Positions 3,390-17,642 of a DNA stretch of 29,204 bases are shown in pieces. Within the stretch, counting starts at the first letter, position 1. Each line of letters opens with the position of its first letter. A program made the translations under genes and the position numbers. Under the pieces are notes generated by a model, which saw only the letters and a list, made by a program, of their open reading frames with translations, ran no database searches and was not told the origin of the DNA. The DNA is from a virus: positions 1 to 29,204 of IMG/VR virus record IMGVR_UViG_3300009537_000122; one strand, given 5' to 3'.

Positions 3390-3577
3390 ACTGTTACTTG
3401 AAGCGCCTCAGCTTCGTGGCCGGCATTGTGGCGGGGGCTTTCTGTTTTGTGTCCTTGGTCCTTGTTACCCAGGGCTGGGCCCTGCTTGCGATTGCGGGAG
3501 CCATGCTGTTCTCGGTAAGCGTGGCCGGCCTGTGGACTGAAGCCTGCCGTATATTCCCCAAGGATAAACGTAAATGA
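3386..3577 (+). CDS. Small two-helix membrane protein, holin candidate
   Basis: 63 residues from a GTG that overlaps the endolysin stop (ATGTGA). Two hydrophobic stretches (about residues 9-28 and 31-49) are joined by a short polar turn, with a basic N-terminus (KR) and a strongly basic C-terminal tail (KDKRK). This resembles a two-TM (class II) holin, and its place directly after the endolysin supports a role in lysis. I see no sequence signature that names a holin family, so the function is inferred from topology and position. A separate 3TM holin gene is encoded on the opposite strand at 4409-4924, so this could instead be an antiholin or spanin-like helper. Confidence 0.6.
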   Translation: MNCYLKRLSFVAGIVAGAFCFVSLVLVTQGWALLAIAGAMLFSVSVAGLWTEACRIFPKDKRK

Positions 3578-4422
3578 CCCGCGTGTTTGAGCTGTGTGAC
3601 AAGTATTATACCGTGTACGCCGCCAACAAGAAGTGGCGATCGCAAGGGGAGGATTTGCGGCAGATCCGCAAGTACATTGTGCCACACTTCGGGCAACGAG
3701 ATGTCGCGGGCATTCAGTACGAGGACATAGAGACTCTGCACGCCGACTTGAAAGCTACCCCCTATCAAGCCAATCGCGTGCTCGCCCTGTTGTCCAAGAT
3801 TTTCGACTTGGCTGAGAAGTGGCGCATGCGCCCGCACGGTTCAAACCCGTGCCGTGGAATTCAGCGATACCGAGAATTAAGGCGCAGCCGGTATATCACG
3901 CCAGAAGAGGCTCCAAAGGTGGCCGAGGCTTTGGATCGATATGAAGTGACCTGGCCCAAAGAGGTCGCATTTATATACTTGCTTATGCTGTCCGGGGCGA
4001 GGCCGGAAGAGATCGCGCGGGCCCAATGGGACTGGCTTGAACTATCAAAGGCCGGCGGGGTTCTCCGCTTGCCGGATTCCAAGACCGGCGCCCGTTCTGT
4101 ATACTTGTCCCCTCGGCTCGTAAGCCTGTTGGGGGCGCTGGAGAATAAAGGTGGGGTGATATTGAAGGGTGCCCGCCCTGCGGTGCTCTGGCGGCTTCTG
4201 CGGGATCAGCTTGGACTATCTGGTCTCAGGCTTTATGATCTTCGGCATTCGTTCGCGAGTGCCGCATTGGCCGCCGGGTACAGCCTGGACCAAATAGGGG
4301 AACTTCTGGGCCACCGAAGCGCTCAAACCACCAAAAGATACGCCCACCTCATGGAGGATAAGGCGCACGAGGTGGCCGCGGGAACGTCCGCGCACTTGGA
4401 GCGCATGCTTAACCCTTCTTGA
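3574..4422 (+). CDS. int: Tyrosine recombinase (phage integrase)
   Basis: 282 residues. Expected to recombine the phage attP with a host attB. The N-terminal part (about 1-90) looks like a SAM-like core-binding domain. The catalytic domain carries R143 (SGARPEE), K170 (DSKTG), R224 and H225 (YDLRHSFAS), H247 (LGHRS) and the nucleophile Y256 (TTKRYAHL). The first residue of the box II His-x-x-Arg is Tyr (Y221), a substitution common in proteobacterial prophage integrases. It starts within a four-base ATGA overlap with the preceding membrane protein gene and its end overlaps the convergent holin gene by 14 bases. It is therefore co-transcribed with the endolysin and has no adjacent intergenic space for attP, which is unusual. 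Confidence 0.93.
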   Translation: MTRVFELCDKYYTVYAANKKWRSQGEDLRQIRKYIVPHFGQRDVAGIQYEDIETLHADLKATPYQANRVLALLSKIFDLAEKWRMRPHGSNPCRGIQRYRELRRSRYITPEEAPKVAEALDRYEVTWPKEVAFIYLLMLSGARPEEIARAQWDWLELSKAGGVLRLPDSKTGARSVYLSPRLVSLLGALENKGGVILKGARPAVLWRLLRDQLGLSGLRLYDLRHSFASAALAAGYSLDQIGELLGHRSAQTTKRYAHLMEDKAHEVAAGTSAHLERMLNPS

Positions 4423-6353: not shown

Positions 6354-8120
6354 CTACGGGTAAACAACTACTTCCACTTTTCCATCGGCGCCGTTGGCCC
6401 CGACTCCTGAAGACCCGGCATTTCCGCCGCCTCCCCCACCCGGTTGTGTTCCGACCGTACCGGTTGCCCCTCCGGCACCCCCGAATACACTGGAACCCGG
6501 GGTACTTCCACCGCCTCCGGCCGCCGCCCCTCCGCCGCCTCCGAAAACAGCCGACTCGGCCGCCACAGCACTTCCCGAAGAAACACTGCTGCCGTGCCCT
6601 CCGGACCACAAGTTACTCAAACCAGGCGCCCCATTAACCCCCAGAGAACCGGCACCCCCGACGTTTCCGCCGCCACCATATAAAGCGGAGGTAGAGGCGG
6701 TTCCATCACCGCCACCGCCGCTATACCCAGTGGCGTGTGACCCGAATGTTGTGCTGTCGCCCGCCGCCCCATCGGTGTTGTTTGAAGTGGCCCCGAGACC
6801 CCCAGTACCTACATTTACGGCCTCTGTGGCCCCCAAATCCGAGAGAACTTTCCAAATTTCCTGGAACCCGCCGCCGCCTCCGCCGCCCGACGCCGAGCCA
6901 AACCCCGAATCCCCACCACCGCCTCCCGGACCCCACACTCTTATGCGAACGCGGGAATTTGTCGGGTATCCAGCGGGTTTTGTCCACGTGTCGGCTCCGG
7001 CCGTTGTGAACGTCTGGGTGTTGGGAGCTAAAGAGGATAGCTGGGTGCCATCCCCTCGGATGAATATCACCTTGTACGAGGAAGCCGACCGCGCGTATAC
7101 CAAAGCAAAATCCCCGGCCGCTGCAACCACATCTGCGGCGCTGGTGATGTCGTTTGTAGTAGCGTGGTACGTCAGCGGGGTGGCTGCATCAAATATAAGA
7201 AACATCCATGCGCCGGCTTGGGGAGCGGTCCCCCAATCGGTAATGGCGGTGGTACCGGTGATGTGCACTAAATTACCGTCCGCCGCCCAGATATTGCAAT
7301 CGGTTGCCGAGGCGACGGCGGCGCCTTCAGCCAACCAAAGAGACTTGGCCACCACGGTGACAACGCCTTGAAAAGCGGACGTGCCTTGGAAAATTAGATT
7401 CGCGGTGAAAGTCCGCGCGGAATTCAGAACAGCCTTTATAAAATTGGCCACCGTGATTTTCACGCCGCCCGTGGCGCTTGTGTCGCGCAGGATTAATTCA
7501 TCGTCGTCTGCCGGTTGTGCTCCCAGGGATGATAAATTCCCGTCGAGAGTTTCCACCATGGTCGCTGCATCGGGATCGTCTAGGACCGTAGCCGCAAACG
7601 CCGACACCGCGGTCAGATCGACATCTGCCGGAAGTTTATTCACAAGCGCCGTTCCCGCAGCATCCCACCCGATAAGTGTACTGGCAACAGGAACGGGTAA
7701 CACGGGATCGGCGCCAGAGGTGTCGGCGTCATTAAACCGCAGCGATCGATCCGATAAATCCCGCAATCGCTGAATTTGGAGTGTCGCCCGATCAAAAGAC
7801 CGTTCAACGCCCACTTCCACATCCAGAGGGTCTCCGTTCACCAGGTCTGTCAACTGAGTGAGGGCCGAGTCTCTGTAAATCACCAGAGTTTCCCCGGTAG
7901 CCGGGGGTGTGGCCATCGTTACCGTGCCACCGCCAGCGTCCCCCGCCCCGGCCACTGTATAGTCTGTATCAAGAACTTGCGTCACCGCGACGCCTGTCGC
8001 GTCATTGACGATGAGAACCACAAGATCCGAGTTCAACAGAAATTTGTTCGGGAACGCAAAATCTGTGGACACGTCATTTCCGGCAGCGGACGTGCGGTTA
8101 TTCGTTGTGGAAACTGTCAT
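6354..8120 (-). CDS. Tail fibre protein, T7 gp17-like N-terminus and glycine-rich tip
   Basis: 588 residues. Receptor-binding fibre. Residues 1-130 follow the T7 fibre attachment-domain pattern: an early 'FPNKFLLNSDLVVLI', 'DYTVAGAGDAGGGTVTMATPPATGETLVIYRD', then 'SFDRATLQIQRLRDLSDRSLRF'. The middle (about 150-370) is a beta-rich shaft of mostly small and polar residues. Residues 391-588 are a very glycine-rich tip (runs such as GGGGGDSG and SGGGGGGGF alternating with Ser/Ala/Thr loops), as in adhesin tips built from polyglycine helices. The start has an AGAGGTGA site and a sigma70 promoter lies directly upstream. It is the last virion gene in T7 order; downstream come a small membrane protein, phosphoesterase, DUF5675 and holin. 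Confidence 0.9.
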   Translation of the reverse strand: MTVSTTNNRTSAAGNDVSTDFAFPNKFLLNSDLVVLIVNDATGVAVTQVLDTDYTVAGAGDAGGGTVTMATPPATGETLVIYRDSALTQLTDLVNGDPLDVEVGVERSFDRATLQIQRLRDLSDRSLRFNDADTSGADPVLPVPVASTLIGWDAAGTALVNKLPADVDLTAVSAFAATVLDDPDAATMVETLDGNLSSLGAQPADDDELILRDTSATGGVKITVANFIKAVLNSARTFTANLIFQGTSAFQGVVTVVAKSLWLAEGAAVASATDCNIWAADGNLVHITGTTAITDWGTAPQAGAWMFLIFDAATPLTYHATTNDITSAADVVAAAGDFALVYARSASSYKVIFIRGDGTQLSSLAPNTQTFTTAGADTWTKPAGYPTNSRVRIRVWGPGGGGGDSGFGSASGGGGGGGFQEIWKVLSDLGATEAVNVGTGGLGATSNNTDGAAGDSTTFGSHATGYSGGGGDGTASTSALYGGGGNVGGAGSLGVNGAPGLSNLWSGGHGSSVSSGSAVAAESAVFGGGGGAAAGGGGSTPGSSVFGGAGGATGTVGTQPGGGGGGNAGSSGVGANGADGKVEVVVYP

Positions 8121-8176: not shown

Positions 8177-11100
8177 TTATTTTTCCAGCTCCGCCGCCAC
8201 TTCGTGCGCGATTCTGTATATCTCCAATTCCCTGGCTTCTGGAGGAAGCGCGATCATTATGGCGTGCCTGCGGGCTGCCGTGAGAACCTTGGAGTATAAG
8301 ATTCGCTTTAGAAAATCCGGCCGTTCGTCCCACGTTGGGGCATTAACCACTTCAGACATGATCCTGTGCGCGAATTCGCCTTGCGCCTTCACGTACTCGT
8401 TGCGCGCCTTATCTTCAATGTCCACGGTTCCGATCTTACCGGTGCGCGCCCCAATGTGGACACTGCGCGGGGCCGAGGAAATAGGGATTTCCAGCCGGGC
8501 GGCTTCGGATAAAACTTTATCGGAAGACTCGATTGTCACCTTGATGGGGGAGAGCGGCCATGATTTTTCCGGCAAGATTGGTTCCCCAGTTATCGGATTC
8601 CGGACCGCCAAAAGTTCCTCGCGCCAAATCGGAATTCGCGCTTGCACTGCGTCGGCGATTGAATTGATTTCGCGGGAATGCGGGTCCATGGCCGCCGCGG
8701 TTTGTCCGATCAGCCCCGGCACCAGTGACGCGGCGTATTGGTCCATGAATCGACCTCCATACCGCCCGGGATCAGATATTGCGTTCACTAAATTCGACAA
8801 TCCTTGCAGGTATTGCTGTGAAATCAGGGCGTTTCCGGTCGCGGCCACTACCGAACCGACCATCTCCAAGTCCCGTTTGCCGCCCGCAAACGCGTGTGAT
8901 AATTCCTGATAATCAGCAGCCACTCCCACTACCGTGGCGATCGGTTGGATACGTGCGTAACTGTACCACTTTCCGTTCAACTTAATCGAGTAATCCTGGA
9001 GACCGGCGGCCCGTCGGGCTGCTCGGCTTGCTTCGTCCAAATGGTACCCGCCCCCGGTCATATTCCCATTCGCAACCGCCGTCGTCACTGCGGACACAAT
9101 GGCACCGCCAATTATCAGGCGCGCCATAACTTGATCCCGCGCTACCCCGCCGGAGCGAAGCGCCGCCCGATCCGCCGCCAGGAACAAGTTTACTCCGGGA
9201 AGGTAACTGGCCGACCACTTCATTAAGTTTATCGGAGTCCGAATGAATGGGACGACAAATTCCAACGGCGTGTTCTTCACCAATTCTTGCAGCGCCCGCC
9301 CCTTTGGCCCCAATTTAGTCGTGTATACGCCGCGGTGTCCGGCCGCCTGAATTACCGTAATCCGCTCAGGACTTGGATCCAAGAGTATATCGTTTACCCT
9401 GGTATTGAATTCTTTGGTGCCGTGCTGGAACCCTTCCGCCAAGGCGTCGCGGGTGGCCAGGGCGTGTGCTTCGCCTTGCTCGGCCATCGTACGGAACAAG
9501 GCGTCTGTGGCGGACAGCACCCGAAACGGAGTTTGTACGACGTGCATCGCGGTGCCTGGCTCGGCGGGCGGGGCGTGTTCGATCTTATCCTGAAGAGACT
9601 GCACTTTAGCCTCAAATTCCTGAAGTTTCACGGCCGTTGTGGCGTCTGGTTTTTCCACCAATTCGGTAACGCGCGCTTCTAATTCCGGCGTTCCAATTTC
9701 TTTCCCTTCAGCGCGCGCCTGAATGGTGGCTAAACGTAATGATTCTGCTTTAACCTGGGCGGCTCGTTCTTTAGCGCGGCTGCGGATTACAGCCCCGGCC
9801 ATTTTCAAACCGGCTAAAGAACCCCCTATCATACCGTTGGCTACCGCGGCGGCTTCATAAAAACTGGCGCGTGTTTCCGGAACGTACTCTTTTCCAGTCG
9901 CATTGGCCCAGGCTTTCCCGGCCATGTCGGAAATTTTCCCGACGGCCGCTGTGACGGCGCGTTCGGGGATGGACATGGCCATGTTCATGTTGCCAAGCAA
10001 ATTGGCCTCAAATGTCGTCAACCCAGATAAGACGCTGGCTTTCCATACTTCCACGACGGTCTGAAATTTCGTCCGCTTTACGTGGCGTTTCACGGCACGC
10101 AACGCCGAAGCCGGGCTATCTGCTTCCGACAGCACTCGGGCCAGATCGGTCAAGCCGGCGCGCCCACCCCCTGTCTCTAAGACCTTGGCCATTTGGTCCA
10201 GATTGATGTCGACGCGCGAACGGTCTTTCAGACTATTCTGGGCTCGGGCTACTTCCGCACGCAAGCCGAGAAAATCGGAGATCAGCATAGAGGTCCGGTT
10301 GGTAGCATCCAGCATATCTGCCACTTGCAATTCGCTGGCCCGTTCCCCGAGGGCAGCCAATTCGCGCCCTTTTATCACCAAGGCCTCCGCCGCCCCGCGG
10401 GCTAGATGCAGCCGCACTTTAAGTTGCACGGCCAATTCTTCGGGCGGTATCGCCTTATCGACGTTTACCTTTTCCACCCCTACATTCAGGACTCGCGCTA
10501 ACTCGGCGCGCGTTTCGTTATTGGTTTGTTCCCACGAAACAGTACTGCGGCGAGAGGCTACGATCTTATCCCGGTTTAATTGGGACAGCCGGGCAATGGC
10601 ACCCGCCGCATCTTGCGTGCTGTTTATGTAGTTGTAGTTCACCTCGTTGGGAAGGGTTTTCTCGCCGGGGGCGTTGCCGGGCTCCGCAAACGGATCCTGC
10701 ACAAACTTCGCGGCGCGTTCCCGCTCGGCTTTCGTCATGGGGACCGGATCCGGCACGGCCAGTTTGGCGTTCTCGCGGGCCACCAGATCGGCATATTTTT
10801 CCGGGATAACGTCTGCCTTCGGGTCAAGTAATTCCCTACTGAGTTTGGCATCGAACGACGCGTCATAGGCCACGCGCGCTGGTTCCAATCCCGACTTGGC
10901 GTAGATGTCCTGTAGTTTGGCCTGGACTACCGGAACGGCCCGGAATCCACCAATCAAGAGAGCGTTATCCTGAAATTCGCGTAAAGTCGGCATGCGCTGT
11001 TCTAATGCGGCGGCTGTCGAGGTCATCCCTAACACTTCCGCTAAGGGGACCGCTGCTGCCCTCACAGCCACGTTGGTGAGCTTAGAGGCTACCATGCCAG

Positions 11101-11614
11101 GCCCGGCTGTTCCCAGGCCCATGGTGACGCCCTCAACGGTTCCGTGGGCAAACGCCTTGGAGGCTTCCCACAGATCTCCAAACGATCTAACCCCACCCGT
11201 TTTATACGCCTGCATTAAGTACGCCCGCATGGCACTGGGGACGGCGAAACCGCCTGCGGCCGCTCCGGCTACCGTTCCTACCGGACCGAGCGCAGCCGTC
11301 CCGGCGGCCATACCGCCCGCCGCTCCGAATAAAATTTGTGGGAGATCCACCACGATGCCGGAAACCCCCGCCGCCAAGCGTTCCGCCGTGGTGCTGTCCG
11401 GCGGAAGTTCCTGCGAAGGAAGTTCCCCGCGTAACGCTAAGCCGGTGGCGCTACTCTGCACCCCGGACCAAATGGCGTTGAATATGCCGTGGGGCGCGTT
11501 AACACTTGGCCGCGACAATTCGTCGAAATTAATGGCCGGAGCCGATACTGCGTCGAACGGATCATCGAGCGTTGCCGGCACCCCTTGGGACACCGCATCA
11601 AACGGGTCAGCCAT
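8177..11614 (-). CDS. Large internal virion / DNA ejection protein (T7 gp16 position)
   Basis: 1145 residues, the largest gene in the window. Its place after two smaller core proteins and before the fibre matches T7 gp16, the ejected core protein that spans the host envelope. The N-terminus carries two copies of DPFDAVS (residues 3-9 and 18-24). An Ala/Gly-rich hydrophobic region (about 85-130) and a hydrophobic segment near 833-852 ('LIIGGAIVSAVTTAVANG') could insert into membrane. Long helical charged stretches (about 350-520, 620-690) are typical of these proteins, as is 'PFIRTPINLM'. I do not see a lytic transglycosylase domain like that of T7 gp16, so peptidoglycan cleavage may be left to another protein. 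Start overlaps the previous stop by one base (TAATG). Confidence 0.78.
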   Translation of the reverse strand: MADPFDAVSQGVPATLDDPFDAVSAPAINFDELSRPSVNAPHGIFNAIWSGVQSSATGLALRGELPSQELPPDSTTAERLAAGVSGIVVDLPQILFGAAGGMAAGTAALGPVGTVAGAAAGGFAVPSAMRAYLMQAYKTGGVRSFGDLWEASKAFAHGTVEGVTMGLGTAGPGMVASKLTNVAVRAAAVPLAEVLGMTSTAAALEQRMPTLREFQDNALLIGGFRAVPVVQAKLQDIYAKSGLEPARVAYDASFDAKLSRELLDPKADVIPEKYADLVARENAKLAVPDPVPMTKAERERAAKFVQDPFAEPGNAPGEKTLPNEVNYNYINSTQDAAGAIARLSQLNRDKIVASRRSTVSWEQTNNETRAELARVLNVGVEKVNVDKAIPPEELAVQLKVRLHLARGAAEALVIKGRELAALGERASELQVADMLDATNRTSMLISDFLGLRAEVARAQNSLKDRSRVDINLDQMAKVLETGGGRAGLTDLARVLSEADSPASALRAVKRHVKRTKFQTVVEVWKASVLSGLTTFEANLLGNMNMAMSIPERAVTAAVGKISDMAGKAWANATGKEYVPETRASFYEAAAVANGMIGGSLAGLKMAGAVIRSRAKERAAQVKAESLRLATIQARAEGKEIGTPELEARVTELVEKPDATTAVKLQEFEAKVQSLQDKIEHAPPAEPGTAMHVVQTPFRVLSATDALFRTMAEQGEAHALATRDALAEGFQHGTKEFNTRVNDILLDPSPERITVIQAAGHRGVYTTKLGPKGRALQELVKNTPLEFVVPFIRTPINLMKWSASYLPGVNLFLAADRAALRSGGVARDQVMARLIIGGAIVSAVTTAVANGNMTGGGYHLDEASRAARRAAGLQDYSIKLNGKWYSYARIQPIATVVGVAADYQELSHAFAGGKRDLEMVGSVVAATGNALISQQYLQGLSNLVNAISDPGRYGGRFMDQYAASLVPGLIGQTAAAMDPHSREINSIADAVQARIPIWREELLAVRNPITGEPILPEKSWPLSPIKVTIESSDKVLSEAARLEIPISSAPRSVHIGARTGKIGTVDIEDKARNEYVKAQGEFAHRIMSEVVNAPTWDERPDFLKRILYSKVLTAARRHAIMIALPPEARELEIYRIAHEVAAELEK

Positions 11615-13149
11615 TAGCGGATCCTCAGCTCAGGCGGCCGCCCTGGGGCCACTATTACGAAGTAGGTTCCTGGTTGGAGAGCTTGAGCCTCTGCAACCGT
11701 TTGTATGTTGGGGAGATTCCCAAATTTCGGTTTCCCAAACTCTGCTTGTGCGGCTTCGAAGCCCGCCTTTTTCGCGGCGTACGCTTCGGTGGAGGCCTCT
11801 TTGTTGCTCCGCAAATAGCTCATAACCTGCCCGCGCTCCAACAAGTTGTCCTTGTGGCCCGGCGTGATGAGGTCCATCGGATTCTCTTTGTCCTGAATTT
11901 TTTTCTGCCAAGCGGCGTTGAACGTGAGACGCCAGCGATGCAAGGCTTCCGCCGATTTTCCAGGCTCCAACGCACCCTCTAAAGAACGGGTGAGCATAGT
12001 CCGGGCCGTATCTTGGGCGCTATTCATTACCACGCCAAATGGGTCGTGCTTCAATTCGGACCGCAAAGCATTGAGAGACGGATGATCAACCCCGTTTCCA
12101 AAATACCGGTATAACTGTTCCTCGGTCGTTATTTTGTTTGGATCCCCTTCCGGCAAATGGATGCGGCGAAAAAGGGCGTTTACCGTGGTTGGATCAGCGG
12201 AAGCTGCACCGATTTTTATACGCCCCAACCACGCCAGTTTTTTGTCAGAACTGATGTCCGCTTTTTGGATTTGTTTGGCAGTAAGATTCTTGGCCTGAAA
12301 CAAATCCACGAATTCCGATTCGACAACTTCCTCGGAGATGCGCCGGTCTTCCTTTTGCTTGGCGACAATGCGAGCTTGATCGGCTTCCCGGCCCAAGAAG
12401 GCGGTGCGGGACTCCCCCCGCAACTGTTTTTGCTGATCGGCGGATAGGTACTGCGCCGGCCCGGTTCCGTTGTCCATCATTTCATCTGCCAATTCCGGCC
12501 CGGCGGTCAAAATGACGCCGCGCACCGCGGCAACGGCCAACCTTTGTCGCATCTCCAAGTCTAATTCCGCCACTTTTTGCGCCGGGAGATCACGCGCGTA
12601 GGCTCCATTCGGATCGTGAAGGGCAGAAATCGAGGCGTCAAGGACGCTCTGGAATTGCATCGGGTCGTCCACCAAAGTCTGTTCATTGGTCTCCAAAGCT
12701 ATCTTGAGACCGAGCGCGGCCTGTTGGCCAACAGCGACGGCTTGGTAGTGGTTCGCCTGGACCCGGAATTCAGAAGTCAACGCGGCGGAACTTTCGGCGG
12801 CCAATTGAGACCCCGCGCCGGTATGGTACCCCTTTTGATCTTGGGCCAAACGCGCGGCCATTCTGTCGTCCCAGCGTTTGGTGAAATCCGGGGTGGCGGC
12901 GTCCCCGGATTTGATGGCCTCTTGCATCTCGATCGTTAAATCTGCCCGAGCTTGGGCGGTGTTCATCTGAACTTTTGAACGATCAATACGTTCGCCGGTC
13001 GCGTATATCTCGCCCGCCACATCGGACAGGGCCGAACCCAGTGCCCGGCCCCCGGCCGCTTTCGCACCCGCAATCGAAAGGGGAATGTTTTGAACGGCCC
13101 CCGGGCCTGCAGGGCTTTGAGTGGCCTGATATTCCCGAATGTTGGGCAT
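11614..13149 (-). CDS. Putative internal virion protein (T7 gp15 position)
   Basis: 511 residues, strongly helical and charged, with no hydrophobic segment. The first 45 residues are a Gly/Ala/Pro-rich leader ('SPAGPGAVQNIPLSIAGAKAAGG'), then long Gln/Ala/Glu helices to about residue 480. Size and place between a small core protein and a gp16-sized protein match T7 gp15, which forms a tube for DNA ejection. No enzymatic motif is seen. The start has AGGTAG five bases upstream and the stop overlaps the next start by one base, so core proteins are made in a coupled way. The assignment rests on order, size and composition rather than direct similarity. Confidence 0.65.
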   Translation of the reverse strand: MPNIREYQATQSPAGPGAVQNIPLSIAGAKAAGGRALGSALSDVAGEIYATGERIDRSKVQMNTAQARADLTIEMQEAIKSGDAATPDFTKRWDDRMAARLAQDQKGYHTGAGSQLAAESSAALTSEFRVQANHYQAVAVGQQAALGLKIALETNEQTLVDDPMQFQSVLDASISALHDPNGAYARDLPAQKVAELDLEMRQRLAVAAVRGVILTAGPELADEMMDNGTGPAQYLSADQQKQLRGESRTAFLGREADQARIVAKQKEDRRISEEVVESEFVDLFQAKNLTAKQIQKADISSDKKLAWLGRIKIGAASADPTTVNALFRRIHLPEGDPNKITTEEQLYRYFGNGVDHPSLNALRSELKHDPFGVVMNSAQDTARTMLTRSLEGALEPGKSAEALHRWRLTFNAAWQKKIQDKENPMDLITPGHKDNLLERGQVMSYLRSNKEASTEAYAAKKAGFEAAQAEFGKPKFGNLPNIQTVAEAQALQPGTYFVIVAPGRPPELRIR

Positions 13150-13682: not shown

Positions 13683-14152
13683 GCCGCCACCTCGTGACCT
13701 ACAATTTGCAACATTTCTTTGTCCACGGAGTCGTAGTCCGGGGAAATAATACGTTCTTCCAATTTTCCTAAATCCCGTTCATTCGTGGGATTGGCGTGAA
13801 TCGTGGTCCACACGGTATCCTCGTGGGCGTACAGGGCGCGCTTGGTGCCGGCGCTGGACACCATTGTGCACGGGCCCCGAACTTCCTGCAACCCGGCTTT
13901 GGTTAAGACGGTGACGTGGCCTTTGGATATAAAATTCAAATGTTCGTGCCGATGGATCTTCCCAACAATCACCGATCCTTTTGGGATGAAAATTTCCCGG
14001 CAGTATACCCCATCCGTGAAGGTGTGCTTCAGGGAGAAGTCCATCTGGGGCGCCCTGGAAATGGCCGCCTCCAATTGGGCTATCCGCTTGCGAACATCGA
14101 GCTCCCGCGAAGCGAGGGCCTGTCCGGTGGGAAGCCGCGCTATATCGTTCAA
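13679..14152 (-). CDS. Cupin-like protein within the tail/core operon
   Basis: 157 residues. Residues 1-35 form a charged helix. From about 45 to 120 there is a cupin-type beta pattern: 'GKIHRHEHLNFISKG' (H67, H69, H71), then 'VRGPCTMVSSAGTKRALYAHEDTVWTTIH' (P94, G102, H110). This resembles the metal-binding cupin motifs 1 and 2, but the usual Glu of motif 1 is missing. Both ends overlap their neighbours by four bases (ATGA), so it is embedded between the tail nozzle and the core protein genes and made in step with them. It may be a virion component that binds metal or sugar, or a small assembly factor. The T7 equivalent position holds gene 13, which is unrelated in sequence as far as I can tell. 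Confidence 0.65.
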   Translation of the reverse strand: MNDIARLPTGQALASRELDVRKRIAQLEAAISRAPQMDFSLKHTFTDGVYCREIFIPKGSVIVGKIHRHEHLNFISKGHVTVLTKAGLQEVRGPCTMVSSAGTKRALYAHEDTVWTTIHANPTNERDLGKLEERIISPDYDSVDKEMLQIVGHEVAA

Positions 14153-17082
14153 TTTCTATCCTCCGTCGTAAGTTGTGGAAAGACGGCCAACAAAGTAAGA
14201 GGCATGGGCTTGTCGCGTACAAAACAAATGCGTTCATCGGTCCCATATCCCGAATCCCAATTCGGGACTTCCGCATCTCCGGTGTACGGAGGGATGGCCG
14301 TATCGGTGGGATCAGAACTGGTCCTGAAAATGTATTCGTCCAGAAAATCAAAGCTCGGTCCAGTAGACATCGCGGCGGTGCTATGAACCCGGAACGCCAC
14401 CCGGTGAATGCGCTGCGTTTTTCCTTGGGATGTGCCGTTCTGAGCACCCATATCAAAACGCATCGATTGGCCTTGCGCCAAAAACGCAAGCCCGACTTGT
14501 ACCACGGAGGCCTCTCTATCAAGCGTAATCTGTCCAGATGCCACCGTCTTATCCGGGTGGGCGGAGCCATCGGCTAAAACAGACACAACTTCTCCCTCCA
14601 AATGATCTAAACCAGACACGGTGGTCGTGGCCGCTCCGTCGTACGTTACCCCACAATCTACGAAAAACGAGTCTTCAACGTCGTCCCCGTCATCGAATAT
14701 CTTCTTCATGTACTCTATGGTCCTCAACGTCGCGCCGTTCACTGTGCGTTTCACGACCATCCACAGTTGATCACGCGTTCCGTCCGTCGACGGGATTACC
14801 GCTACCGATTCAACAACCGCGTGTCCGGCCCCAAACGCCCCGCCGCGGATGTGCCGGTGCCAACCGACGGCAACTTTTCCTGAATCGTCGGTAGGAACAA
14901 AAGTCATGCCAACCAACACGCCGTCCCCACGCACCATCCACAATATCGGCTGCGGCGACATTTGTACGGCCATGTCGGTAATGCCGCCACGCGTGATGTG
15001 CTCGGCCGACAGGGTCAGATCCGGCGTGCTGAAACCGTCCAAACTCGTCGAGCCATAATTGATGGCGCGCAATTTCCGCCCGCCCCGTTGCACGTACGTT
15101 ACTGAATCCCCCAGATGGACCGCAGGTACATTTGCGCTGCCATAACTTTTCAGCCGCTTGCCAGAAGCGTTCGTCGGAGATAAGGCCTCGCCGGCCGTTG
15201 ACGGTCGTATCAACCACGGGCCGCCAGGTGTGCCGACTACCAAAGCCTTTTCGTCGTCCATCAGCCACAGGATCGCGTTGATTTCCCGGGAGCCGAGAGT
15301 GAACGAAACGGCGTTACTGCTTATGACCGTGTCGTCTGTTTCACTCGGAGCAAAATTCTGGTAATCACCGGAATTCGACCCATCCAATCGTTGGGGATAA
15401 TTTGGCACTCCCGCAAAAATCAAGCGGTCTTCGTAGAAGCCGACCGTGCGGGGGTAGCCGGTCGTTTCAGACCAAACGCCCAACCGCCAGAAGGTGCTGG
15501 CCGTGGTGGCCCCAAAAGCCGAGCCAACTTTCACGTTGACGACCCAAGGGGAAACAAATTCCGAAATAATGGCGGAACCCCACGTCGAGGCGTGCTTTAT
15601 GCGGACATGCCGACCCACATCCGTGGCCGAGAAAATAGCCCTGGACGCCGTCAGGGTGACGCGCTCCGCTCCCACCATGTAGGCGTTGGTGCCGTCGGCC
15701 GCCCCCACCGCAATGGCGTCGGCTCCGGACCACACGATGCCATACAACGCGAAGTTCTTCGGATTCGTGTTTTCCGTCCAAGTAATGGCGTCGCTGCTGC
15801 TCAGAATATATGCGTCGGTGCCGTCCGCGGCGCCTACGGCTATCCATTTATTGCTGGCCCACACGATCCCGTAGAGCGTGAAATTTTTTGGATTTGCCTG
15901 CTCGGCCCAAGCAAGACCGTCGGCGCTGGTAATGATGTATGCGTCGGTTCCGTCGGCGCCCCCGACCGCAGTAAAAAAGTATCCAGACCACGCTATTCCG
16001 TACAACGTGAAATTCTTGGGGTTAGCGCGCTCTGTCCACGCGATGCCGTCCGGGCTGGTAGCGATGTACGCATCAGTTCCGTCAGCCCCGCCGACAGCCA
16101 CCAAGAGAAGGCCGTTCCAACTTACAGCGCGCAGCGCGAAGTTCTTGGGGTTGGCTCGCTCGGCCCAGGTAATGCCGTCCGCGCTGGTAACGATGTACGC
16201 ATCGGTTCCGTCGGCCGCTCCGACCGCCACAAATTGGTCCCCGGTCCACGTTATTCCGTACAACGTGAAATTCTTGGGGTTAGCGCGCTCTGTCCACGCG
16301 ATGCCGTCCGGGCTGGTAACGATGTATGCATCGGTTCCGTCAGCCCCGCCGACAGCCACAAATTGAGAACCGTCCCACGTAATGGCGTGCAAGGCAAAAT
16401 TCTTTGGGTTGGCTTGCAGCGTCCAATTTGCGCCGTCCGGGCTAGTGGCAATGTAGGCGCCGGATCCTGTCACGGCACCAACGGCGCAATACAGCGCGCC
16501 GGAATGGGCAACAGCATTTAGACCCAGATTGGACGGATTGTCTATTTCGTCGTAAGCCGCCGTCGCTGGAGTGATGGTGTCCAGGGTGCTGTTGGTTGGC
16601 AAATATGGCCCATCCAGAAACGCCATAATTTCCAAAATCCATTCGGTATGAGACAGCCGAATGAGGCGGCGCTGTGCGTGGCTTACGTGCGTTATGTATA
16701 AAACGTCCGCTGATTGGGTGAACTGCAAATCGAAAATCTGGGCGGCGGTGTACGGAGTTTCAATTTCAACAGCCGTCCCCGGGGGGTTTTCAATGCGCGC
16801 ATCGTCTTTGTAGAACCGGCAGTATAGATTACCAAATTCTATGATGTACGCCTGCTCAGTTGAAAACTCGAAGCGAACTACCCTGGTGGCCGAGGTGCTA
16901 TCTTTCGCCGCCGCCACGTGTGCCGTTCCGGGGGCCGCGGTTACGCCGCCTTGCGCCAACGGGATGAACCCCAGACACACACCCAATCCCTGTTTGTACT
17001 CATCGGTTTCAACGCGGCCGGCCACGAGCGGGGATAGTTCCCCGCTGAAAAACGAAGTTTGGCTTGGGGCTGCGCGCGCCAT
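14149..17082 (-). CDS. Tail tubular protein B / nozzle (T7 gp12-like) with inserted propeller repeats
   Basis: 977 residues. Forms the distal tail tube. The N-terminus 'SQTSFFSGELSPLVAGRVETDEYKQGLGVCLGFIPLAQGGVTAAPGT' split over residues 7-53 and the following 'VVRFEFSTEQAYIIEFG' are the family signature, as is 'YPRTVGFYEDRLIFAGVPNYPQRLDGS' after residue 530. Between them, residues 181-471 are seven units of a 43-residue repeat with an Asp-box-like 'SxDGxxW' and 'ANPKNFxL' (listed separately), predicted to form a seven-bladed propeller. T7 gp12 is about 800 residues, so the extra length is largely explained by the insert. The start overlaps the tail tubular A stop by one base and its stop overlaps the cupin gene start by four. 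Confidence 0.87.
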   Translation of the reverse strand: MARAAPSQTSFFSGELSPLVAGRVETDEYKQGLGVCLGFIPLAQGGVTAAPGTAHVAAAKDSTSATRVVRFEFSTEQAYIIEFGNLYCRFYKDDARIENPPGTAVEIETPYTAAQIFDLQFTQSADVLYITHVSHAQRRLIRLSHTEWILEIMAFLDGPYLPTNSTLDTITPATAAYDEIDNPSNLGLNAVAHSGALYCAVGAVTGSGAYIATSPDGANWTLQANPKNFALHAITWDGSQFVAVGGADGTDAYIVTSPDGIAWTERANPKNFTLYGITWTGDQFVAVGAADGTDAYIVTSADGITWAERANPKNFALRAVSWNGLLLVAVGGADGTDAYIATSPDGIAWTERANPKNFTLYGIAWSGYFFTAVGGADGTDAYIITSADGLAWAEQANPKNFTLYGIVWASNKWIAVGAADGTDAYILSSSDAITWTENTNPKNFALYGIVWSGADAIAVGAADGTNAYMVGAERVTLTASRAIFSATDVGRHVRIKHASTWGSAIISEFVSPWVVNVKVGSAFGATTASTFWRLGVWSETTGYPRTVGFYEDRLIFAGVPNYPQRLDGSNSGDYQNFAPSETDDTVISSNAVSFTLGSREINAILWLMDDEKALVVGTPGGPWLIRPSTAGEALSPTNASGKRLKSYGSANVPAVHLGDSVTYVQRGGRKLRAINYGSTSLDGFSTPDLTLSAEHITRGGITDMAVQMSPQPILWMVRGDGVLVGMTFVPTDDSGKVAVGWHRHIRGGAFGAGHAVVESVAVIPSTDGTRDQLWMVVKRTVNGATLRTIEYMKKIFDDGDDVEDSFFVDCGVTYDGAATTTVSGLDHLEGEVVSVLADGSAHPDKTVASGQITLDREASVVQVGLAFLAQGQSMRFDMGAQNGTSQGKTQRIHRVAFRVHSTAAMSTGPSFDFLDEYIFRTSSDPTDTAIPPYTGDAEVPNWDSGYGTDERICFVRDKPMPLTLLAVFPQLTTEDRN
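15670..16542 (-). repeat. In-frame 129-bp tandem repeat array (43-residue units, beta-propeller-like)
   Basis: Six full units of exactly 129 bases (16443-16315, 16314-16186, 16185-16057, 16056-15928, 15927-15799, 15798-15670) and a diverged partial unit before them (16542-16444). Each encodes S-x-D-G-x-x-W, then A-N-P-K-N-F-x-L, then a Trp and 'VAVGxADGTDAYI'. Units 2 and 4 are nearly identical over about 100 bases (for example the segment starting at 16021 recurs at 16279, exactly 258 bases away), so two-unit blocks appear to have been duplicated. No frameshift or stop interrupts the array. Confidence 0.93.
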
Positions 17083-17642
17083 TAATCCCGCACCGTAATC
17101 CAGGCCGATTCTTCGGCTTCAACGGAGAGAGTTTCCAGCGCCCCAACCCGGCGGGCTTCCGCGATGGCGAGGCCGAAATCCCGCAATTGTGTTGTGCGTT
17201 TTGTGTTCGAGCCCGTAAGGGCCTCGCACATCTTATATGCCATATCGGCCGCCACCGCTTCCCGGAATAGCGGGTCCATGGTGTTTGGGTCAGTTATCGC
17301 CTTGACATACCGCACGTCCAAGGGCGCCGGCCAATCCGTTAGAATTTTCCGGCCTTCGATGATCCAATCGAGATCTGAATCAATCGGCAGAATGACGCGC
17401 AAGGCGTCAACCGGTAGGGTGTACTGGTTCGCGGGCCCAAAAACTGGGGCCACGCTGTCGGCGGCCAATTGCTTCCGGGCTTTCGAAAAGCCCCACGTAT
17501 GCGACCGCAATAGCGAGTCGCGCGCGACCGGGTATGCCACGGCACATTCCCGCGATTCTTTGTTGTTGCCGGACAGGGATATGATGCGCCCAGCCCCGAG
17601 GCGCTGCAACGCGCTGTTACAGATCTCAATTTCACTGGACAT
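17082..17642 (-). CDS. Tail tubular protein A / adaptor (T7 gp11-like)
   Basis: 186 residues, close to T7 gp11 (about 196). Forms the ring joining portal to tail nozzle. The sequence follows the family pattern: 'IEICNSALQRLGAGRIISL', 'CAVAYPVARDSLLRSHTWGFSKARKQLA', 'YTLPVDALRVI' and a late 'DPLFREAVAADMAYKMCEALTGS' helix. The stop overlaps the start of the nozzle gene by one base. It begins a tail sub-operon: a terminator and a possible sigma70 promoter lie in the 147-base gap upstream, giving a leader of about 100 bases with a modest GGTGG ribosome site near the ATG. Confidence 0.9.
   Translation of the reverse strand: MSSEIEICNSALQRLGAGRIISLSGNNKESRECAVAYPVARDSLLRSHTWGFSKARKQLAADSVAPVFGPANQYTLPVDALRVILPIDSDLDWIIEGRKILTDWPAPLDVRYVKAITDPNTMDPLFREAVAADMAYKMCEALTGSNTKRTTQLRDFGLAIAEARRVGALETLSVEAEESAWITVRD

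Follow-up and report, generated by a model that had tools for sequence, protein, structure and literature searches.

The tail nozzle is usually regarded as a conserved conduit or gate, and host range is assigned to the fibres. The canonical nozzle already has the form of a seven-blade propeller, and its tip domain emerges from within one of the blades (T7, PMC6702177; SU10, PMC9509320; P-SCSP1u, PMC10575957). A nozzle gene in the viral contig studied here (IMG/VR record IMGVR_UViG_3300009537_000122, whose 29,204 nucleotides are referred to as the window) raises the question of whether a second propeller has been added to this tip and, if so, what it could do there. An earlier note on this DNA had described seven units of a 43-residue repeat inserted in the nozzle protein, and had proposed that they form a closed propeller that binds sugars or acts as a secondary receptor-binding device.

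The nozzle gene and its neighbours

The array lies in a 977-aa open reading frame (ORF) at 14149..17082 on the minus strand, which matches the phrog_376 tail protein family (T7 gp12-like tail nozzle; E 2.4e-195) and the Carin-1 tail nozzle 8ck1 (E 7.7e-84). An AF2 model spanning residues 1-977 aligned with 8ck1 over 655 residues (Z 41.1, 34% identity, rmsd 2.0) and with T7 gp12 at Z 27-28, and its pLDDT was mostly >85 outside the insert. By sequence and predicted fold, this ORF is a podovirus tail nozzle with the canonical propeller, platform and tip. No match to the Pfam family Phage_nozzle (PF25675) was reported for the window nozzle; the family matched its homologues, above the cut-off in L010 and just below it in L111 and L116.

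The normal nozzle sequence that had been noted on both sides of the array was borne out by the phrog_376 and 8ck1 matches and by the high pLDDT of the flanks. On the minus strand, residues 1-174 (16561..17082) carry the platform strands, the first canonical blades and the entry to the tip domain, as judged from the alignment of relatives and a pLDDT mostly >85, while residues 472-540 (15463..15669; TLTAS..F..TDVGRHVRI...), which are conserved in propeller-less relatives, supply the rest of the tip domain. Residues 541-977 (14149..15462) hold the remaining canonical blades, the fibre dock and the platform, as indicated by the phrog_376 match, fold comparison and the T7 alignment.

The gene for the adaptor (T7 gp11-like, tail tubular protein A; 17082..17642, minus strand; phrog_394, E 4.3e-47) is directly upstream of the nozzle gene, and alignment of the adaptors showed it to be without an insert. 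A tail fibre whose N-terminal anchor is T7-like is encoded separately at 6354..8120 on the minus strand (phrog_1640 and phrog_13893, residues 1-129), so a conventional adhesin is also present in this phage. The contig belongs to a podovirus of the broad HTVC010P-like group and contains DNA polymerase, integrase, terminase, portal and capsid genes. Within the minus-strand region 8177-13149, a 511-aa ORF (11614-13149) without a PHROG match lies between two internal virion proteins.

The repeat array

When the nozzle protein was compared with itself at a lag of 43 residues, identity reached 0.65 across residues 187-471, against a maximum of 0.16 in 1000 shuffles at any lag from 20 to 79, and no period was seen in the rest of the nozzle outside 187-471. 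The repeat reported at residues 181-471 is real and maps exactly to 15670-16542. Its description as seven 43-residue units needs correction, as unit alignment gives six full units (residues 187-444) followed by a partial unit of 27 residues (445-471). On the minus strand, the full units, or blades, occupy 16396..16524 (blade 1, residues 187-229), 16267..16395 (blade 2, 230-272), 16138..16266 (blade 3, 273-315), 16009..16137 (blade 4, 316-358), 15880..16008 (blade 5, 359-401) and 15751..15879 (blade 6, 402-444), and blade 7, consisting of strands A-C only, occupies 15670..15750 (445-471). The two motifs that had been named for the repeat, SxDGxxW and ANPKNF, also hold in part: SxDGxxW is present in units 1-5 and degenerate in unit 6 (SSDAITW), and NPKNF ends units 1-6.

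The strand that blade 7 lacks appears to be supplied from the other end of the array. Residues 175-186 (AAYDEIDNPSNL; 16525..16560, minus strand) match the fourth blade strand (IAWTERANPKNF) in register, are the best match to the D strand outside the units and stand immediately before unit 1; the same entry strand is found in the nozzles of L107 (YAERANPKNF) and L111. The array thus reads, from its sequence, as a seven-blade propeller that is closed by a velcro arrangement, and the count of seven put forward earlier stands if the split blade closes in this way. Since the chain enters on strand D and exits after strand C of one and the same blade, the two ends of the module would lie side by side, which is what insertion into a loop requires.

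The blades of the window share 42-81% protein identity. Nucleotide comparison revealed an exact repeat of 67 nt on the minus strand, with one copy at the junction of blades 2 and 3 (16252..16318) and the other at that of blades 4 and 5 (15994..16060), which shows that two blades were recently duplicated or converted. As the window is a metagenomic contig, the number of blades depends on assembly; the count is made more trustworthy by the fact that 67 nt is the longest exact repeat between blades. Between blades, pN/pS was 0.65 in the A-B hairpin, 0.17 elsewhere and 0.30 overall, and the A-B hairpin is the variable part. A 376-aa open frame on the plus strand (15391-16521) runs antisense to the array and is most likely a by-product of repetitive GC-rich codons.

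Propeller family and structure prediction

A profile built from 18 viral homologues retrieved kelch, WD40 and Nup214 propeller chains among solved structures. The Pfam family DUF6242 was matched by 14/18 of these homologues, with further matches to BNR_2, Sortilin-Vps10, PSII_BNR and BNR; the window segment alone gave a weak DUF6242 match below the cut-off. The window array has the hallmark of Asp-box propellers, tandem blades of 40-50 residues that bear SxDGxxW in their third hairpin, and by its sequence is classed as an Asp-box (BNR/Ycf48-like) propeller. The length of the blades and the position of SxDGxxW in the C-D hairpin are shared with the Asp-box/BNR families (Ycf48/PSII_BNR, Sortilin-Vps10, BNR_2 and DUF6242), whereas the NPKNF and ADGTDAY motifs set the window blades apart from them and are typical of a viral subset without a characterised member.

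When the propeller alone was folded by AlphaFold from its single sequence, the ring was not closed and the pLDDT was 47.6. Within the model of the full nozzle, computed from a 39-row alignment without propeller homologues, the propeller region had a pLDDT of 35-60; these low values reflect folding without homologues. Foldseek lent weak support, in that nearly all matches to the low-confidence propeller model were propellers, fucose-binding propeller lectins among them. Reading of residues 175-471 revealed no [FY]RIP motif, and sialidase activity of the insert was rejected on this ground; profile searches with the window segment gave no significant match to any enzyme family.

Position of the insert in the nozzle

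The earlier note had also stated that normal gp12 proteins lack such an array. This is correct for the extra array and needs qualification for propellers in general, as nozzles have a degenerate seven-blade propeller of their own (PMC6702177, PMC9509320); the novelty therefore lies in the tip domain, which holds a second propeller. The window nozzle would then have two propellers, the degenerate one of the core and a highly regular one in the tip domain. Compared with the nozzles of T7 (gp12) and Carin-1 (8ck1), which it resembles in its gene position after the adaptor, its sequence family and the fold of its flanks, the window nozzle adds a propeller of 297 residues to the tip, whereas those nozzles have only the canonical propeller and a compact tip domain.

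The proposed position on the tip side is supported by homology, through the T7 alignment and the published topology of the T7 tip (PMC6702177). Residue 539 of the window nozzle aligns with T7 residue 336 in the profile alignment, and residues 123-132 (QSADVLYITH) resemble, by reading, the T7 stretch just before residue 146; residues 175-471 accordingly fall within the T7 tip interval. In T7, blade 3 is where the tip domain emerges and returns, near Y146/Y281/W297; the domain is directed towards the outer membrane (PMC6702177), and its residues Q184/R205 face the host (PMC12798971). Homology thus supports a position of the insert within the nozzle-tip domain, in the distal part facing the host. 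The SU10 nozzle offers a parallel in that domains inserted through the opening of a propeller blade form the tail tip; the SU10 tip consists of four Ig-like domains that rearrange on infection, whereas the insert of the window tip is a putative propeller (PMC9509320).

Distribution of the propeller among nozzles

About 130 nozzle relatives were screened for the propeller. The repeat was present in 0/82 nozzles from viral contigs that had been found by nozzle sequence and in 0/14 isolate or metagenomic phage nozzles, and a clade-directed scan of ~40 further nozzles yielded only the already-known sister contig. The idea that the repeats belong to the standard nozzle fold of all relatives can thus be set aside, because nearly all of the nozzle relatives screened lack them.

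A search of viral contigs with the aligned blades recovered 28 loci, six of which were nozzles and most of which were other tail proteins or unknown proteins. The window segment itself found nothing when used as the query against the viral contigs, a null that is explained by the choice of unusual stretches as patterns, and the blade profile had no match among cellular genome contigs. As the patterns used for retrieval, ADGTDAY and WTERANP, came from the motifs of the blades, the conservation of these motifs across loci is partly a matter of ascertainment.

All propeller-bearing nozzles are metagenomic. Two partial contigs from one metagenome, L105 and L107, have the insert at the same site as the window, and L105 is the sister of the window in the nozzle tree (SH-aLRT 96%). 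The nozzle of L111, remote from that of the window, has six blades at the tip site. A loop near residue 60 is used in L108, with four blades, and in L116 (4056-7445), where seven blades are followed by an F5/8 type C (galactose-binding-like) domain, and at least 11 blades are found near residue 100 of the L115 nozzle, which also has a segment that looks, in its sequence, like a LamG-type lectin. Four changes are needed to place the trait on the nozzle tree, two of which are forced by strongly supported branches. Independent acquisition of the propeller by separate nozzles appears to be the simpler reading, since the insertion sites differ.

In five loci (L114, L121, L123, L126 and L148), neighbouring ORFs of the tail region both have Asp-box blades, one member of each pair being of the NPKN/DGxDAY type and the other of a shorter type. 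No paper on Asp-box or BNR propellers of phage tails was found in the open-access literature searched. The type of propeller is known from other phage adhesins, and no earlier report was found for a nozzle protein.

Adaptor propellers and other inserts

Propellers also occur in the adaptor encoded upstream of the nozzle in L115, L140 and L141, which represent one phage population, with six blades in each of the L140 and L141 adaptors. The gp11-like adaptor genes L141:3497-5083, L140:3761-5341 and L144:3845-4453 have the propeller inserted after the first 60-odd residues, and the nozzles beside them have blades too. These three loci have identical flanks and different blade arrays, which may represent real heterogeneity or misassembly; we rejected them as proof of blade shuffling, because misassembly of short reads gives the same pattern.

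Other domains were found in the nozzles of propeller-less relatives, where E1_FCCH domains are located near residues 100 and 815-845. Inserts of this type were seen in the nozzle ORFs of L004, L005, L156, L159 and L161-L166, repeated and sometimes two in tandem. The nozzle tip of L020 (1014-3218), a close relative, has in place of the propeller a weak match to CBM_5_12 (E 0.008, below the cut-off), and similar tip inserts without a family assignment are found in Carin-1, TL-2011b and BcepC6B. From these sequences, insertion seems to recur at fixed hot spots of the nozzle, which has the look of a platform on which surface domains can be exchanged.

Discussion

Taken together, the data make it reasonably probable that the insert is an independently folding Asp-box propeller in the nozzle tip, the rings of which give multivalent adhesion to the host envelope. 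The chain would leave the tip domain at residue 174, provide the last blade with its fourth strand, run through six complete blades and return after the third strand of blade 7; the module would thus be suspended from the tip as a closed ring whose two ends meet at one blade. Should the nozzle form a hexamer, as it does in its relatives, six such rings would surround the mouth of the DNA channel and face the cell, where they could bind the host envelope (glycan or surface polymer) multivalently, either following attachment by the fibre or alongside it, and the rings might diversify as blades are duplicated and A-B loops vary. These roles in adhesion and diversification are what we infer for the rings.

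The array is probably a mobile adhesin module that contacts host glycans or the envelope, and the sugar-binding or secondary-receptor role suggested earlier is plausible by analogy. In phi11 and PRD1, receptor binding is carried out by propeller domains, and that of phi11 has a candidate GlcNAc site (PMC4901313). The phi11 RBP (five blades), PRD1 P2 and PhiKZ gp131C (seven blades) resemble the window, by their descriptions, in bearing propellers on attachment organelles, although theirs are on dedicated receptor-binding or baseplate proteins and that of the window is on the nozzle (PMC4901313). In Vibrio phage OWB, the adaptor and nozzle (TTPA/TTPB; receptor Vp0980) bind the host beside the fibre and, added free, block adsorption; unlike the case proposed here, no propeller insert is described for OWB and the receptor is a protein (PMC7241545).

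A variable A-B hairpin against a conserved remainder is what would be expected if one face of the ring were a diversified surface; the variation could also come from relaxed constraint rather than selection, the overall pN/pS of 0.30 being below neutrality. One face of a propeller is made up of the A-B and C-D hairpins and the other of the B-C and D-A loops. This would place the near-invariant ADGTDAY and NPKNF loops opposite the variable hairpin, on a face that might either bind a repeated ligand or be structural.

Propellers of phages may also act as structural or capping elements, which counts against the adhesin reading, as does the tail fibre that this phage already has. It is conceivable, though rather unlikely, that the propeller is genuine and has no specific ligand, serving as a stabilising collar or cap at the tip of the ejection channel or as a spacer that sets the distance to the membrane. 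The strong conservation of the blades outside the A-B hairpin would suit such a role, as would the precedents of the canonical nozzle propeller, which is itself structural and gates DNA (PMC6702177), and of the SU10 nozzle domains, which rearrange to extend the tail (PMC9509320). However, most close relatives lack the module although their nozzles are otherwise similar, the use of several loops and the adaptor as sites does not fit one shared mechanical role, and the same loops are occupied by FCCH and possible CBM-like modules.

We consider it very improbable that the array is open or has a different number of blades, or that it results from an assembly error. Blade counts do vary by locus (four in L108, six in L111 and in the L140 and L141 adaptors), different arrays between the same flanks in L140, L141 and L144 are what heterogeneity or misassembly would give, and the ring was left unclosed by AlphaFold, in a model made without propeller homologues. 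Nevertheless, entry on strand D and exit after strand C, the classic velcro arrangement, are in register in the window, L107/L105, L108, L111 and L141, and the longest exact repeat between the blades of the window, which are distinguishable from one another, is short compared with typical reads. Asp-box propellers include sialidases and other glycosidases, and BNR_2, a sialidase-type Pfam repeat family, matches 2/18 of the viral homologues, but an enzyme that degrades surface polysaccharide at the tail tip, whether sialidase-like or otherwise glycan-cleaving, is just as hard to credit, given that propeller glycosidases depend on a single asymmetric active site, in contrast to the near-identical blades seen here, and that the segment lacks both [FY]RIP and a significant enzyme-family match.

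The putative adhesive propeller of the nozzle tip may also be part of a wider pattern. We suggest, more tentatively, that a mobile, self-closing phage propeller cassette could have been plugged repeatedly into loops of the ejection apparatus (the nozzle tip, two nozzle blade loops and the adaptor), providing exchangeable receptor binding that is independent of the fibre and evolves by duplication and shuffling of blades.

What is new here is the second propeller in the nozzle tip; propeller adhesins and exchangeable tail modules were already known. If a multivalent adhesin module does occupy the distal tip of the nozzle, the ejection tube would itself be a site of host adaptation, and the tail-tube receptor observation made in OWB would become testable as a general principle, the module recurring in unrelated nozzles and one adaptor. 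The nozzle and adaptor genes would then be worth inspecting in the prediction of phage host range.

The isolates nearest to the window by nozzle are HTVC010P-type pelagiphages, and a related nozzle sits in an alphaproteobacterial genome bin (L193). The phage may be temperate, given the integrase encoded at 3574-4422 on the plus strand (phrog_1, 1.7e-46).
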